From assembly GCA_002721815.1 (NCBI GenBank), contig PBLQ01000023.1:33569-82424 (forward strand): a DNA stretch of 48,856 bases, in the 5' to 3' direction. The notes beneath the pieces were generated by a model that was not told the DNA's origin, did not search any database, and saw only the letters and a program-made list of their open reading frames with translations. Made by a program: the position numbers and the translations under genes. The stretch is from Myxococcales bacterium (lineage in GTDB: Bacteria > Myxococcota > UBA727 > GCA-2721815). Of this stretch, positions 10,162 through 17,525 are shown in pieces (positions within the stretch are counted from its first letter, which is position 1; each line of letters opens with the position of its first letter).

Positions 10162-11331
10162 TTAAGATAAATCCCAGCGATACAACCGTACGTTGAGCCC
10201 ACCATTTTGCATGTCCCAGCGTTTATTGTTACCCAGGTTCATGGTTTTCCCTGCACCCGCCAAGCCACTGAGGATGATCACGCGCATGGGCTTGGGAAGC
10301 GCCGACCATTTTTCACCCAGTTGTCGGTAGAGTCCATCGAGCTGTAGTTTGCCTTTGGTTTTCACATCACCCAGCCGCTCGCCGTAAGGGAGGTTGGAGA
10401 CCAGTTGAAAGTTGGTGCCGGTGAATTGCACGTCTCGCGCATCCATGGTGCGTACTTCAATAAACTGTTCGAGCCCTGCATTGTGTACACTTTCTTTTGC
10501 GATCATCACTGCGTTATCGTTCCAATCAGAAATGATGATGGGCGACTTCAACGATTTACGTTCTTTATCGAGGGCCTCCTCGCGCGCTTCTTTGACCAGA
10601 CGGGCCAGCACCCGTGGGGCTTTGCTCCAGCGTTCGAAAGCAAAACGCCGGCTTTTACTTGGCGCGATGTCCAAACACCGCATGGCCTGCTCGATGCCCA
10701 GAGTGCCGGTTCCACAACAGGGGTCCCAAAAAGGACGCCTGACGTCGGCATGAGCAATCGATAGGAGGGCAGCGCCTAAGTTTTCGTGAAGCGGGGCTTT
10801 GGCACCGGGCGCACGATACCCTCTTTTAAAAAGCGGTTTGCCGGTGGTGTCTAGGGATAAAATCGCTTCTTTCCCAAACCAAGAAAGAATGAAGCGACAG
10901 GCCGGTGTTTTGGCGTCAACATCGGGTCGGTTCTTTCCCAGGTTGGTAAATCTGTCAGCGATACAATCTTTGATGAGTAAGGCGGCGTAGTGGGAATGGT
11001 TGAGTGGGGCCTGGTATAAATGGCTGGCACACGCAAAAGTGGTTTTCACATCCAATATTTTTTCAAAGGGAAATGTGATGAGTTGCTCTTGCAACGCTTC
11101 GGTGGATTCCGCTTCAAAGGTTTTGAGTTGCCACAGAATCTTTTGTGCAATGCGAGAAAAGACATTGGCGCGGGCCACCAACGATAAAGGGCCCGTGAAC
11201 TTCAATGCACCGCGCCGGCGATCGAGAATTTGAGCGCCCAGTTTTTCCAGTTCAAATTTGAGCGCTTTTTCAGTGCTTGGCGCGCAGGTGGCCCAAAAAA
11301 TGGGGTTATCTAAATCAAAAGGATTGCTCAA
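10162..11331 (-). CDS. THUMP-domain class I SAM-dependent RNA methyltransferase (RlmL/YpsC type)
   Basis: A 389-residue predicted guanine-N2 rRNA methyltransferase of COG0116. The N-terminal THUMP region (about 1-160) binds RNA, and the Rossmann methyltransferase (about 165-389) has DPCCGTGTLGIEQA for S-adenosylmethionine and SNLPYGERLG near residue 307. Most relatives have NPPYGERL at that catalytic loop, so the Leu in place of the first Pro is a small departure; the Asn and Tyr are kept. The length matches the single-methyltransferase form, not the two-domain E. coli RlmKL. Its start overlaps the stop of the small upstream membrane protein by four bases, so the two are probably translated together. 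Confidence 0.9.
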   Translation of the reverse strand: MSNPFDLDNPIFWATCAPSTEKALKFELEKLGAQILDRRRGALKFTGPLSLVARANVFSRIAQKILWQLKTFEAESTEALQEQLITFPFEKILDVKTTFACASHLYQAPLNHSHYAALLIKDCIADRFTNLGKNRPDVDAKTPACRFILSWFGKEAILSLDTTGKPLFKRGYRAPGAKAPLHENLGAALLSIAHADVRRPFWDPCCGTGTLGIEQAMRCLDIAPSKSRRFAFERWSKAPRVLARLVKEAREEALDKERKSLKSPIIISDWNDNAVMIAKESVHNAGLEQFIEVRTMDARDVQFTGTNFQLVSNLPYGERLGDVKTKGKLQLDGLYRQLGEKWSALPKPMRVIILSGLAGAGKTMNLGNNKRWDMQNGGLNVRLYRWDLS

Positions 11332-11767: not shown

Positions 11768-12829
11768 ATGCTCCAGAAAAAGTCTAACTCTTTGAAATTA
11801 ATGACCTTAAGCGCACTTCTAATGGCACTTTTAGCCTGTGACCAAGGCACGCCCATCCCCTCAGATGAGATATCGGACAATCGCGGCGATATTCCATGTG
11901 CCACTGTAAGCGACTGTCCCGATCCGGACCTTTACGAGTGTATCAGCGTTTGTAAGCTCAAATGCCTTGAAGACACCGATTGCGCGGCTGATTCTTACTG
12001 CACTGATACCGGCTTTTGTGAAGCAGGTTGCCGCGATTCCGCCACTTGTCCCACGGGCCAGTATTGCGTTAACGGCAGCTGCCAAGTGGCCAACGCCGAC
12101 TGCACGTCCAAATGCGACTGTGCAGAAGGGCTCGTTTGCCAAGATGGCATTTGCCAAGACCCACCCACCCAGTGCCAAAACAGCGCCGATTGCGGTCGGG
12201 GCCCAGGCGAAAACTGCGAAGCCTACATTTGCAATGGTTTCACCAACCAATGCATCGAACAGTCCCCCGAACCCTGTGAAAGCAACGCCGACTGCACCGG
12301 CCGACCTGGTTGTGAGGGCGGGTGCGGCTGCAACAGTCAGGGACAATGTATCCCCTTGGGAGAGTGCACCCCTGAGACGCAAGAATCAGATTGTGCTGAA
12401 GGCGAAATCTGCGATGACACCATGATGTGTGTGGAAGCGCCAACTTGTTTGAACGGTGGCGTCACTTGCCCCGCTGGCCAAGTCTGCAATCCCAATACGG
12501 GTGCGTGTGAAGCCAGCACCAACTGCACCTCCAACGCAGATTGTCCCACCGGCCAAGTGTGCAACACGGTCACCGGTCAATGTGAGGAGACCACCGGCGG
12601 GAGCTCTGGTACTGGCGGCACTGCCAACTGGGGCGAAGCGTGTGGCAGTTTGTTGGGCGGTGGCAGTGGCAGCGGCGCCACTTGTGCCGAAGGCTTGATT
12701 TGCGGTTTCGCAAGCGGAGTTTGTGAAGAACTTTGCGATACCCCTGGGGCCTGTACAGATTGTTGCCCGGTTTCGGGCGGAAATTATTGCGAAGCGGGAC
12801 TCCTTGTTAACTTCTGTCGCGTTCAATAA
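11768..12829 (+). CDS. Cys-rich lipoprotein
   Basis: A 353-residue predicted lipoprotein. AAGGCGG precedes the ATG, and the signal ends in LLMALLAC. The mature part is almost wholly built of short disulfide-type units of the form CxxxxDCxxGxxC (for example NADCPTGQVC and DSATCPTGQYC), about a dozen in all, with a Gly/Ser linker near residue 275 (GGSSGTGG). Such repeats are typical of myxobacterial surface proteins and usually stabilise extracellular adhesive or binding modules. No enzymatic motif is present. It precedes the nuclease gene by 44 bases on the same strand and may be the first gene of that operon. Confidence 0.82.
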   Translation: MLQKKSNSLKLMTLSALLMALLACDQGTPIPSDEISDNRGDIPCATVSDCPDPDLYECISVCKLKCLEDTDCAADSYCTDTGFCEAGCRDSATCPTGQYCVNGSCQVANADCTSKCDCAEGLVCQDGICQDPPTQCQNSADCGRGPGENCEAYICNGFTNQCIEQSPEPCESNADCTGRPGCEGGCGCNSQGQCIPLGECTPETQESDCAEGEICDDTMMCVEAPTCLNGGVTCPAGQVCNPNTGACEASTNCTSNADCPTGQVCNTVTGQCEETTGGSSGTGGTANWGEACGSLLGGGSGSGATCAEGLICGFASGVCEELCDTPGACTDCCPVSGGNYCEAGLLVNFCRVQ

Positions 12830-12873
12830 CCTGTCGGAACTGAAACCTTTATCTCTTCATTTTGGATGGCCCT

Positions 12874-13809
12874 ATGATGCCCAAAGCCCTTCTCGTTTGC
12901 CTGACGTTTTTCCTCATGAATGCCGGCAGCGCCGCTGCGAAAGAACCCGCTTCTCAGGTGTTTCTCAATGGTGTTCCCACGCCAGTGTTTTTTAACGACG
13001 GAGACTCCTTTCGGGTACTGGAAGGGCCTTTAAAGGGAACCAAAGCACGCTTGGCGGGGTTCAATACCCTTGAGAGTTACGGGCCGGTGCATCAGTGGGG
13101 CACATGGCACGCGAAAGAATTGTATGCCATCGCAAAAATGGCCACCCTCAATGCGCGTCGTGGGGTGTGGAATTGCTCTTCTGAAATGGAAAAAGACACT
13201 TATGGTCGTGTCTTGTTCGATTGTTTGGATTTGGCGGAAGATCAAATCCGTAAAGGCTTGGCGCATGTGATGAGCGTGACCACGGATCCTGGACACCCAA
13301 GACTGGTTGCGGCCCAGAAAGACGCCATTGAAAATCGGGCGGGGATGTGGGCCCATGGGGTTCCTGAATTTGTATTGACTTCGTTGCACTCCATCGATGA
13401 GCGATCCAACCGTGCCTATGCTTACAACCGGTTGGTTTCTTCCATCGATGGCCATTCAGAAAAATGGATGCACAAAAACAAATACACAGAGTGCCAAGTG
13501 GTGTGTGAGCAAAACATTGAGATTACAGACGCCGATTTGGCCCAACTCCGCAAGACCTTGTTGCGTGATGTGAACGTCAAGCCCATTTTGGGTGGAACTT
13601 CAGCGCAAGAAGTGGATCACATTATTCGCATGTGGCTGAAAACCCAGACGGTGGCCGCCATTATTGAAAAAAGAAATATCGGCGTGATGAAAAAGGCGCT
13701 CGCGGCGCTCAAATCAGACGGCATGACCACTGCTTCAGATGGATCATGTGTGGTTTATGTGGACTTCAAGCGTCGTTTCGGTGGTGATAAAGCAAAATGC
13801 CTCAAATAA
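12874..13809 (+). CDS. Secreted staphylococcal nuclease (thermonuclease) family protein
   Basis: A 311-residue protein with a signal peptide (cleavage likely after SAAA, near residue 22) and a staphylococcal nuclease fold over about residues 28-165. Residues corresponding to the nuclease active site are present: Asp in DGDSF (42-44), Arg in ARLAG (59), Glu in FNTLES (67) and Arg in TYGRVL (112). Known relatives are calcium-dependent DNA/RNA phosphodiesterases. A C-terminal extension of about 145 residues has no recognised domain. The ATG at 12874 begins a proper signal peptide, but the ribosome site is weak. Its last 13 bases overlap the next gene, a MopE-like lipoprotein, which suggests translational coupling and a joint envelope function. 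Confidence 0.87.
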   Translation: MMPKALLVCLTFFLMNAGSAAAKEPASQVFLNGVPTPVFFNDGDSFRVLEGPLKGTKARLAGFNTLESYGPVHQWGTWHAKELYAIAKMATLNARRGVWNCSSEMEKDTYGRVLFDCLDLAEDQIRKGLAHVMSVTTDPGHPRLVAAQKDAIENRAGMWAHGVPEFVLTSLHSIDERSNRAYAYNRLVSSIDGHSEKWMHKNKYTECQVVCEQNIEITDADLAQLRKTLLRDVNVKPILGGTSAQEVDHIIRMWLKTQTVAAIIEKRNIGVMKKALAALKSDGMTTASDGSCVVYVDFKRRFGGDKAKCLK

Positions 13810-14924
13810 CCACTTTCATTTTTGCCACGGTGGCGCTGTTGCTGAGCAGCAGTGCTTGTGAGTTTCAACGACCGCTCACTGCCCCCATGGGGTATGAGAC
13901 CGGCGATGCGGCTTGTCACGATGGGCGGGACAATGACCACGATGGTTTGCCGGACTGCGCGGACCCAGATTGTGTGGCCACCTCGGGGTGGTGCGGCGAA
14001 GACGTGCCCTTGATCCCCTACGTTACCGAAGAAAACACGTACGAGCTTTGTAACGACCAAATCGATAACGACAACGATGGGCAAATGGATTGTGGCGACC
14101 GCAATTGTCAGGCGATTCCCGAAAATTGTTGTTCCAGAGAGTTTTCAGACGAGATGTGCAGCGATGGCATTGATAACGATCAAAACGGTTATGTGGACTG
14201 TGAAGATTTCGGTTGCCGCATGGGTGATTTTGTAACGGTTTGTGTTGAAAATACCGAGGCCTTATGTGCTGACGAAATCGACAATGACGGTGATGGAGAT
14301 ATCGATTGCAATGATTACAACTGCGCCGGTATCGGGGCTTGCCCGGCTGAAGAATCAGAGAGTGATGATGTGGATTGCTCCAATATGGCCGAAGGGCCAG
14401 AAGAAACACTGGCGTACTGCCAAGATGGTTGCGACAATGATGGCGATGGCTACGTGGACTGTGCCGATTACAGCTGCTCCCAAAGTGAAGATGCCGACGT
14501 CCTCGCTTATTGCGAAGGTCTTTCAGAATCTTCCTTAGAAAAGTGCACCGACGGCATTGATAACGATCAAAATGGATACACGGATTGCGATGATTACAGT
14601 TGCAACCGAGACGGCGATGCAGACGCCGTGGCCCATTGCGCCGAAAACATGGAGAATACCGCAGAGAAATGCAGCGATGGCATCGATAATGATGGCAATG
14701 GCTATGTGGACTGCGGCGATTTTAGCTGCTCTCAAAGTGAGGACATTAACGTGGCGCAAGTATGCCAGGAAAGCATCACGGCCATGGGCTCCGCCGCAGA
14801 GGCCAATCAAAAATGCGACGATGGCATCGATAACGATGGGGATGGTTTCACGGACTGCAACGACTGGGATTGCAGCTGGAACCCACTGGTCACCGTTTGC
14901 GCCGACAACCGAATTTGTGAATAA
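13797..14924 (+). CDS. Lipoprotein with eight MopE-like metal-binding repeats
   Basis: A 375-residue predicted lipoprotein (signal ending LLLSSSAC) containing eight copies of a motif close to CxDGIDNDxDGxxDC, spaced about 30-60 residues, each followed by a short DxxC tail. Asp/Asn spacing in each unit resembles calcium-binding loops, and the two Cys likely form a disulfide. The family is named after the MopE surface protein of Methylococcus, which binds copper at another site, so metal preference here is open. The start lies inside the nuclease gene (13-base overlap) and the next gene follows after 12 bases, so the three are very likely one transcript. Possible roles are a calcium reservoir or scaffold for the nuclease, or a surface spacer. 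Confidence 0.85.
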   Translation: MPQITTFIFATVALLLSSSACEFQRPLTAPMGYETGDAACHDGRDNDHDGLPDCADPDCVATSGWCGEDVPLIPYVTEENTYELCNDQIDNDNDGQMDCGDRNCQAIPENCCSREFSDEMCSDGIDNDQNGYVDCEDFGCRMGDFVTVCVENTEALCADEIDNDGDGDIDCNDYNCAGIGACPAEESESDDVDCSNMAEGPEETLAYCQDGCDNDGDGYVDCADYSCSQSEDADVLAYCEGLSESSLEKCTDGIDNDQNGYTDCDDYSCNRDGDADAVAHCAENMENTAEKCSDGIDNDGNGYVDCGDFSCSQSEDINVAQVCQESITAMGSAAEANQKCDDGIDNDGDGFTDCNDWDCSWNPLVTVCADNRICE

Positions 14925-14936
14925 CAGGAGTTCCTG

Positions 14937-16535
14937 ATGATGAATAAGAATTCATGGAAATACAAACTGCCATTATTGATGTGCGGCGTGTTCTTATGGG
15001 CCACCCCCCTTTCGGCCATGGAGCGCGAAACCAACTGCAAGGACGGCATCGATAATGATGGTGATACGGTTTACGATTGTTCGGATGCGGATTGTTTTGC
15101 CGAAGCCCATTGTCAGCCAGGCCAGGGCGAAGAAAACAGCGACGCCACCTGTGGTGACTGGGTAGACAACGATGGGGATGGCGTAAAAGATTGTGAAGAT
15201 ATGGACTGCAAGGCGCCGGGCATCACCACTTGTTACGGCTCTTGGGACATGCGCAAAGCCAAGGTGGAGCAAATCAAACCTGAAACCACCAAAACGGTAT
15301 CGCAGGTATTGCCCGATCTCAAACCGGGCATGGGCATCGAAGACCTCATTGGTTCCGGCAAAGATAAGGACGGGGAGCGCAACGATGTGTTGTGCAGTGA
15401 TGGTTTTGATAACGACGGCGATGGAATGGTGGATTGCGCAGATTACGGGTGCCGCTTCGATCCCGATGTGACCATTTGCCAAGGAAGCCCTGATTTTCGT
15501 TTTTCGGTGGTGGGGAATATTTCTCAGGAATACATTCAACGGGGCGAGATCGATAATTCTGGCGCGCCGGTGGATGCGGTGGCAGAAAACAACTGGGACA
15601 CCCGGTTTTCCCGTTTACAGCTTCGGGCTTTAGGGCCGATTCCTCAGATTCAAGATTCGTTTTTCCTTTTGTCCACACGAATGGAGAAGACGCCGCGTTT
15701 AACCTGGGCCATGTTCCAGTTGCCTGTGGGTGGCGGACACTACATTAACATCAACAGTGGCGGTGGCGGCCTCTCCAATGCGCTGGTGTTGTCCACCGCA
15801 AAACAACTTTTATTAGATCCCCCTTACTATGTGTACAGCGCCTTTGAGCAGGGCAATGGTGCCGCCATGGAGCTGGGTGGGCCCATGCCATTTTTGAATC
15901 CGGGTCTCATGCGTTATCGTGTGTTTTTTGGCGGTGGCAGCGGCCGCTTTGCCGGCAACGTGGGTGGGCGTTATTTCACCTATGACAATACTAATTACAC
16001 TTACTCCGTCGGCGCCCAGGTGGGCATCAACATTATTGGATATGTTTCTCGTTGGGATTCACCCTTCCTCTACACACCAGCCCCAACCGCATTGGGTTTG
16101 CAGGTGGGGGTCAAATACGATCAGCGTGCGCAAGAACGCTACCCCGCTTTGAACGCGGCCTCTTCGTTTCGCTGGAATCGTTTAATTTTGATGGGCGAAT
16201 TTTACGGCAAACAAGAGTTGGAGTTTGAGTCCACACAAATGGCTTATAACCTCCAAGCGGGTTTTCTGATTTGGCCCAAGCATTTGTTGTTGGCGGCCGA
16301 CTTTGGCCAGTATCTGCCCACTGAAATGCAGAACCCACCCGAGCAGCTGGAGACGGACATTCGAAAGAACCTCCAGGGCCAAACCCAATGGCGCGCGGCG
16401 CTGCATTGGTTCTTTTGGCGTAACATCGGCGTGGCCTCGGTGGTCTACTCTGACAAGCTCACCGCTCCTTATGAAGAAGGGGACAACTTCGAATACGAGC
16501 GGATTGTAGAAATGGTCGCCCAATACCGATTCTAA
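14937..16535 (+). CDS. Outer-membrane beta-barrel protein with N-terminal MopE-like repeats
   Basis: A 532-residue predicted outer-membrane protein. A signal peptide (ending TPLSA) is followed by three MopE-like repeats (CKDGIDNDGDTVYDC, CGDWVDNDGDGVKDC, CSDGFDNDGDGMVDC) over about residues 33-185. The rest, about 188-532, consists of alternating amphipathic strands rich in Tyr, Phe and Gly, and ends in VAQYRF; a C-terminal Phe is typical of barrels inserted by the Bam machinery. A porin-like pore is likely, substrate unknown. ACAGGAG lies six bases before the ATG. It shares its repeat with the preceding lipoprotein, which argues that the two act together at the surface. It converges on the J-protein gene with 21 bases between. 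Confidence 0.82.
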   Translation: MMNKNSWKYKLPLLMCGVFLWATPLSAMERETNCKDGIDNDGDTVYDCSDADCFAEAHCQPGQGEENSDATCGDWVDNDGDGVKDCEDMDCKAPGITTCYGSWDMRKAKVEQIKPETTKTVSQVLPDLKPGMGIEDLIGSGKDKDGERNDVLCSDGFDNDGDGMVDCADYGCRFDPDVTICQGSPDFRFSVVGNISQEYIQRGEIDNSGAPVDAVAENNWDTRFSRLQLRALGPIPQIQDSFFLLSTRMEKTPRLTWAMFQLPVGGGHYININSGGGGLSNALVLSTAKQLLLDPPYYVYSAFEQGNGAAMELGGPMPFLNPGLMRYRVFFGGGSGRFAGNVGGRYFTYDNTNYTYSVGAQVGINIIGYVSRWDSPFLYTPAPTALGLQVGVKYDQRAQERYPALNAASSFRWNRLILMGEFYGKQELEFESTQMAYNLQAGFLIWPKHLLLAADFGQYLPTEMQNPPEQLETDIRKNLQGQTQWRAALHWFFWRNIGVASVVYSDKLTAPYEEGDNFEYERIVEMVAQYRF

Positions 16536-16556: not shown

Positions 16557-16991
16557 TTATTCTGAGCGAGATTCGTTTCTTGGGTTGAAGTGAGACGTTT
16601 TGGCGAGCTTTTCGAAAAGCTTTCGCTCTGCATCGCTCAGCTGGCTGGGGACCACCAGGTTCAAATGCACGTAAAGATCTCCCCGTGTGTTTTTATGGGG
16701 AAAGCCTTTTCCTTTTAATCTCATTTTTTGTCCGCCTTGCGCGCCAGCGGGAACGGTCATGGTCACCATACCGTCTAGGGTGGGCACCTCGATTTTCGCG
16801 CCCAGAGCCGCTTCCCAAGGGGCGACATCGACAGTGGTGTTAATGTTTTTACCATCCACTTTGAAGAGTGGGTGTTTTTCAAGTTTGACTTTTAAGAAAA
16901 GATCGCCGTTGGGCACCCCATTCACGCCCACTTTACCTTGGCCACTTAACCGGATTTTCATGCCTTCGGTGGCGCCGGGGGGAATTTTAAT
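16557..16991 (-). pseudogene. C-terminal half of a DnaJ/CbpA-type J-protein, after an in-frame stop
   Basis: This part continues, in the same frame, the J-protein that stops at 16995-16997. It encodes the two DnaJ C-terminal substrate-binding domains: KIPPGATEGMKIRLSGQG, then GDLFLKVKLEKHPLFKVDG, then APWEAALGAKIEVPTLDG and the GKGFPHKNTRGDLYVHL motif. An internal ATG at 16961 could start a 134-residue fragment, but it has no convincing ribosome site. Joined across the stop, the product would be about 322 residues, the usual length of CbpA-like J-proteins without a zinc finger. The fold is intact, so the break is either recent or an assembly error. Confidence 0.75.
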
Positions 16992-16994
16992 TTG

Positions 16995-17525
16995 TTACCT
17001 TTTCTTTTGCCCGCTTCCGGACGCAAGATTCAAGTTACGGGTGGCGCCATGGTACGCGTCGGCCAAGTTGATGGTAATTTCAACTTCGAGATCTTCACCT
17101 TTTTGCGGCGGGGGGCGGTTTTGATTTCCAAAAGGGTTAAAGCCATCGCTTTGTCCACCAAAGCCAGCGCCGCCGAAGAGCGTTTCGAAAAAGTCGGAAA
17201 AATCCCCCCCGCCGAATCCACCCGCAGGACCGGCTCCGCTGAAGCCCGAAAAGGGGTTGCCACCGCCGCCGCCGCGAAAGCCCGAAAAGGGGTCACCTGA
17301 CTGCCAGTTGGCGCCGAGGTTATCGTATTTGTCACGTTTGACCGGGTCTTTTAAGACCTCGTAAGCTTCGTTGAGCTCTTTAAATTTATCTTCTGCGCCA
17401 GGATCTTTGTTGACGTCCGGATGGTATTTGCGCGCAAGTTTACGAAAAGCTTTTTGAATGGTGTCTGCGTCAGCCTTGCGGTCGACGTTAAGCGTTTTGT
17501 AGTAGTCTTTGTATTTGACACTCAT
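16995..17525 (-). CDS. N-terminal half of a DnaJ/CbpA-type J-protein
   Basis: A 176-residue product with a full J-domain (about 5-70, HPD motif at 35-37), which stimulates Hsp70 ATPase, then a long Gly/Phe-rich linker and the first strand of the substrate-binding region ([16 protein letters not shown]). No CxxCxGxG zinc finger is present, so it is of the CbpA/class B type. It ends at a TAA after GQKKR, in the middle of a domain; the same frame continues into the rest of the gene. The start lies nine bases downstream of grpE, so grpE and this gene form an Hsp70 co-chaperone operon. No dnaK lies in the window. If truncated as read, the product could stimulate Hsp70 but not hold substrate normally. 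Confidence 0.85.

Follow-up and report, generated by a model that had tools for sequence, protein, structure and literature searches.

A conserved Myxococcota gene trio predicted to encode an SNase-fold nuclease, a calcium-repeat lipoprotein and a porin-like barrel

Results

Layout of the locus

In the window, that is, the whole 48,856-nucleotide stretch of DNA that was analysed, the genes of an exported SNase-fold nuclease, a repeat lipoprotein and an outer-membrane barrel form a tight, co-directional and operon-like run on the plus strand, and this trio was found in the same order and on the same strand at 31 distinct Myxococcota loci. The nuclease gene (12874 to 13809, 311 aa; ATG at 12874, stop at 13809) overlaps by 13 bases the gene of the lipoprotein (13797 to 14924, 375 aa), which has a lipobox and eight NF033662 repeats. 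After a gap of 12 bases follows the gene of the barrel protein (14937 to 16535, 532 aa), which combines a signal peptide and three NF033662 repeats with a porin-like barrel. The overlap and the gap had been given in an earlier note made from the sequence alone, and they and the coordinates were exact on recheck. The run is flanked by the gene of a putative 23S rRNA methyltransferase (10162 to 11331, minus strand) and, on the other side, by DnaJ/GrpE genes on the minus strand, and is thus bounded on both flanks by genes of the opposite strand. A scan for promoters and terminators between 11300 and 16700 gave nothing usable.

The gene of a Cys-rich lipoprotein (11768 to 12829, plus strand) ends 44 bases before the nuclease gene, as the earlier note had also reported. 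The stretch described in the note includes this gene; among the cassettes, however, the protein is present only at the window locus, with no relative at any other cassette, and it was therefore rejected as a fourth member and is treated as an upstream neighbour outside the conserved unit. Its sequence weakly resembles the repeat Myxo_Cys_RPT (TIGR04201). On the other flank, the DnaJ/CbpA-type gene (16557 to 17525, minus strand) is a single frame except for one TAA at 16995 to 16997, which separates the J domain from the C-terminal domain; either the gene is broken or the stop is an error of sequencing, the surrounding bases being rich in A.

Distribution and conservation of the trio

The nuclease was used to scan 84,980 species genomes once, a scan whose reach is that of close relatives and which gave 28 loci, and further loci were obtained from 97 relatives. 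In the resulting count of 31 cassettes each genome enters once, and L008 and L076, which have identical sequences, are counted once; 27 cassettes are complete and four (L059, L062, L068 and L077) are cut by contig ends. The trio is present in cultured Plesiocystis pacifica SIR-1 (L074), and a few of the MAGs are labelled as Proteobacteria in their records. The genes of the cassettes overlap or are separated by no more than tens of bases, and the genes that flank the cassette vary between loci. Neither nucleotidase nor phosphate genes were seen to recur in the neighbourhoods of the cassette loci.

The cassette nucleases fall together in a maximum-likelihood tree (34 rows, support 85/98), and the only members of this group outside a cassette are L002, which lies at a contig end, and L006 and L010, which belong to one genus and whose lipoprotein-barrel pair is intact at a separate site (L034 and L035). 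Outside this split genus, every cassette-clade locus with sufficient downstream sequence has, behind the nuclease gene and on its strand, the gene of a repeat protein and next that of a barrel. Of 195 genomes from the phylum, 10 have the barrel, 10 the full-length (long-form) nuclease and nine both, a co-occurrence with a hypergeometric p of about 1e-13 when kinship is ignored. The nuclease is not strictly tied to the pair, since in G003 and G008, of one genus, it is located apart from the lipoprotein-barrel pair, and the fragmented genome of G010, a third member of that genus, has the pair and no full-length nuclease. As the pair is kept elsewhere in the split genus, it represents the tightest part of the cassette.

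The whole 4.6-Mb genome of the window has only about eight genes with NF033662-type repeats, and such a low number, taken together with the 31 cassettes, argues that the adjacency is not due to chance. The conserved adjacency that the earlier note had proposed to look for is therefore found across 31 loci and is not a peculiarity of one genome. The other NF033662 genes of the window's genome are located on contigs C15, C57, C9, C6, C71 and C16 of G000, some of them in very long open frames (over 2000 to 4500 aa). Other Myxococcota have stand-alone nucleases that are related to the cassette form but shorter, several of them with a lipobox of their own. In three order-mates with genomes of 1.3 to 1.8 Mb (L011, L012 and L014), a short exported nuclease is found without the lipoprotein or the barrel, near genes that by eye were named tRNA-synthetase-like and dehydrogenase-like.

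The nuclease

The nuclease consists of a signal peptide, an SNase core and a C-terminal segment with four Cys residues and a helical insert. The insert is absent from the nucleases of cassettes L058, L078, L080, L082 and L083, and is therefore dispensable. As a single sequence, the protein scored 20.3 bits against Pfam SNase (PF00565), just below the gathering cut-off of 21, and gave no match in the PDB, while the profile of the family alignment matched S. aureus nuclease with an E value of 5e-5. The structural model (mean pLDDT 95.1) was compared with the PDB using Foldseek, and all 50 matches listed were staphylococcal nuclease (probability 1.00, TM by target 0.53 to 0.68). The model thus predicts an SNase (OB-type) fold.

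The earlier note had described the active-site residues as intact. This holds for R59, E67 and R112, the equivalents of the catalytic R35, E43 and R87, and for D44, the equivalent of the calcium ligand D21, all of which are invariant in 48 sequences; R112 was aligned to R87 by the profile, and the equivalences of R59 and E67 were placed by motif. It does not hold for the calcium ligand D40, whose position is occupied by Asn64 in 48 of 48 sequences. His73, Trp75, His172, His200, Cys101, Cys117 and Cys207 are also invariant, and this set marks the nuclease as a distinct Cys-bearing subfamily, in which disulfides may be formed.

The repeats and the lipoprotein

The lipoprotein has the lipobox LSSSAC (in LLLSSSAC), and its location is most likely the outer membrane. 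A lipobox-type Cys, with a conserved GYE motif after it, recurs in the repeat proteins of the cassettes, in a comparison that leaves out L004, L008, L009 and L076, for which the sequence shown began too far downstream. The eight repeats counted in the earlier note were recovered, although not as the MopE-like repeats it had taken them for: Pfam MopE (PF11617) gave no match to the window repeats at E<=1, so that membership in that family was rejected, and the repeats belong instead to NF033662 (NCBIfam, acidic double-disulfide repeat, acid_disulf_rpt), for which the lipoprotein scored 212.5 bits and the barrel protein 95.1 bits at a cut-off of 41. In other cassettes the number of repeats in the lipoprotein varies from 5 to 11.

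Both the barrel-family profile and the lipoprotein alone match the C-rich domain of teneurin in the PDB (7plp, teneurin-4). In the crystal structure of teneurin-4 this domain binds three calcium ions through E835, D840, D843, N844, D845, D847, D851, D854 and D856 and through backbone oxygens (PMC9058538). The equivalents of D840, D843, N844, D845, D851 and D854 are kept in all 11 repeats of the window, that of D847 is D or N, and that of D856 is variable. Because the core ligands are kept, the reading of the repeats as calcium loops, already suggested in the earlier note, can be considered well supported as a prediction. Each repeat contains about four Cys residues, and the six of teneurin, with their 1-3, 2-5 and 4-6 disulfides, are not matched.

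The barrel

In the barrel protein, the signal peptide is followed by three NF033662 repeats at residues 34 to 173, approximately, and by the barrel from residue 188, so that it opens with the same repeats as the lipoprotein, as the earlier note had observed. About 16 strands are present in the model (mean pLDDT 80.9), whose best structural matches are the 16-strand porins PorB, Omp38, OprP and OprO; on this model, the barrel is predicted to be a 16-strand porin. A Pfam search with 28 barrel members gave no convincing family match, including none to phosphate-selective porin O/P. A strand-parity estimate of the pore-lining residues, which is rough and was made without model coordinates, indicated a balanced charge, and an anion-selective pore for phosphate or nucleotides is thus not indicated. 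Since neither a family match nor, in this rough estimate, a basic pore was observed, the reading as a phosphate or anion porin was not retained. By the ordinary topology of even-stranded porins, the N-terminal repeats are probably periplasmic.

Discussion

The conserved operon, the folds of nuclease and barrel, the calcium ligands and the export signals come from sequence and models; complex formation, nuclease activity, a periplasmic side and a scavenging role are what we infer. We consider that there is about an even chance that the three products assemble at the outer membrane into a complex, stabilised by calcium, in which nucleic acid is degraded and from which substrate or products move through the porin. 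According to this proposal, the nuclease would be exported by the Sec route and freed by signal peptidase I, the lipoprotein with its teneurin-type calcium-binding repeats would be anchored in the outer membrane, and the 16-strand porin would bear three of these repeats at its N-terminus. Loaded with calcium and bonded by disulfides, the repeats of the lipoprotein and of the porin would then constitute a rigid scaffold keeping the nuclease at the porin's mouth. Nucleic acid, for example that of lysed neighbours or prey, would be cut by the nuclease, and substrate or products would move through the pore as nutrients; the purpose of cutting and passage would probably be nutrition. Points that speak against this proposal are the Asn at the D40 position, the loose tie of the nuclease to the pair in one genus, the balanced charge estimated for the pore and the lack of recurring nucleotidase or phosphate genes next to the cassettes.

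The most serious of the other readings, albeit an unlikely one, is that the SNase-fold protein is in practice not a nuclease and serves as a ligand binder or a structural partner of the porin. The invariant replacement of D40 by Asn at a calcium ligand would agree with this, as would the extra invariant His73, Trp75, His172 and His200 and the conserved Cys residues, which are unlike classical SNase, and the Pfam score short of its cut-off; nevertheless, structural selection alone poorly explains why the equivalents of R35, E43, R87 and D21 are invariant in 48 sequences. The earlier note had placed the system at the cell surface; in such a system the lipoprotein would display the nuclease and the barrel would import the products. 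Surface lipoproteins are common in Gram-negatives, and the stand-alone nuclease relatives of other Myxococcota often bear a lipobox. The cassette nucleases, however, have an ordinary cleavable signal peptide and no lipobox, the repeat domain of the barrel is N-terminal and hence periplasmic by ordinary porin topology, and no genes for export of the nuclease across the outer membrane are located nearby. The surface location is therefore somewhat disfavoured, and we regard such an arrangement as improbable.

Almost equally improbable in our view is a DNA-uptake (competence) route, in which the nuclease would trim DNA and a strand or fragment would travel via the barrel toward ComEC. In the cassettes of one genome group (L072, L073, L078, L080, L082 and L083), ExbB-ExbD-ExbD genes are located upstream of the trio and ComEC directly downstream, and the last ExbD overlaps or abuts the nuclease gene in some of them. 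For that genome group, this context points to a connection with energised transport or DNA uptake. Elsewhere, however, these genes are not neighbours of the trio, almost every relative has ComEC whether or not it carries the trio, and in the window's genome ComEC is on another contig, and so are the ExbB homologues; a general link of ComEC and ExbB/ExbD to the trio was accordingly rejected. Moreover, the pore of a 16-strand porin offers little room for duplex DNA. Least probable of all, and in our opinion very unlikely, is a periplasmic barrier nuclease that would destroy foreign DNA, for example phage genomes, on its way into the cell. An exported soluble nuclease adjoining a channel of the outer membrane that plausibly serves as a phage receptor would fit such a role, but the PADLOC defence models gave no meaningful match, for which reason a defence system was rejected, no defence genes were seen recurring beside the cassette in the neighbourhoods of its loci, and the inheritance is clade-wide, unlike that of patchy defence islands.

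As to the outer-membrane complex proposed above, its parts are each close to a known family. The cassette nuclease resembles staphylococcal nuclease and the SNase family (PF00565) in its predicted fold and in the equivalents of R35, E43, R87 and D21, and differs in the Asn at the D40 position, the additional conserved His, Trp and Cys residues, the four-Cys C-terminal segment and, in the long form, the helical insert. The repeats share the calcium-ligand pattern of the teneurin C-rich domain (7plp), whereas they occur in 5 to 11 tandem copies in a bacterial lipoprotein and have about four Cys residues instead of six. The acidic metal-binding loops of MopE (PF11617) are also similar to them, although the window repeats have paired Cys residues and nothing in them corresponds to the copper binding of MopE. 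With 16-strand porins, including the phosphate porins OprP and OprO, the modelled barrel shares its fold and strand number; it differs in that it lacks a sequence family match, has an N-terminal calcium-repeat extension and shows a pore charge roughly estimated as balanced rather than basic. SusC/SusD-type nutrient loci are alike in outline, with an outer-membrane lipoprotein, a barrel and a degradative enzyme, but the cassette barrel is porin-like with 16 strands and not a 22-strand TonB-dependent transporter, and no homology was seen. A search of open-access papers gave no report on this gene make-up. The combination appears to be undescribed, and so does the SNase subfamily whose residue at position 40 is Asn.

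In its widest form our interpretation is tentative, and rather less likely to hold than the complex by itself: the trio may represent a dedicated Myxococcota outer-membrane machine for the processing and transport of nucleic acid. In it, teneurin-type repeats loaded with calcium would act as the scaffold that links an SNase-type nuclease, stabilised by disulfides, to a porin of its own, and in some lineages ExbB/ExbD and ComEC would be joined to the machine. The presence of the trio in a cultured species, P. pacifica, makes the idea accessible to direct testing. If true, it would mean that a phylum known for predation has a dedicated outer-membrane route for the breakdown and movement of nucleic acid, and it would provide a bacterial setting for a calcium-binding domain known from teneurins, which are animal adhesion receptors.
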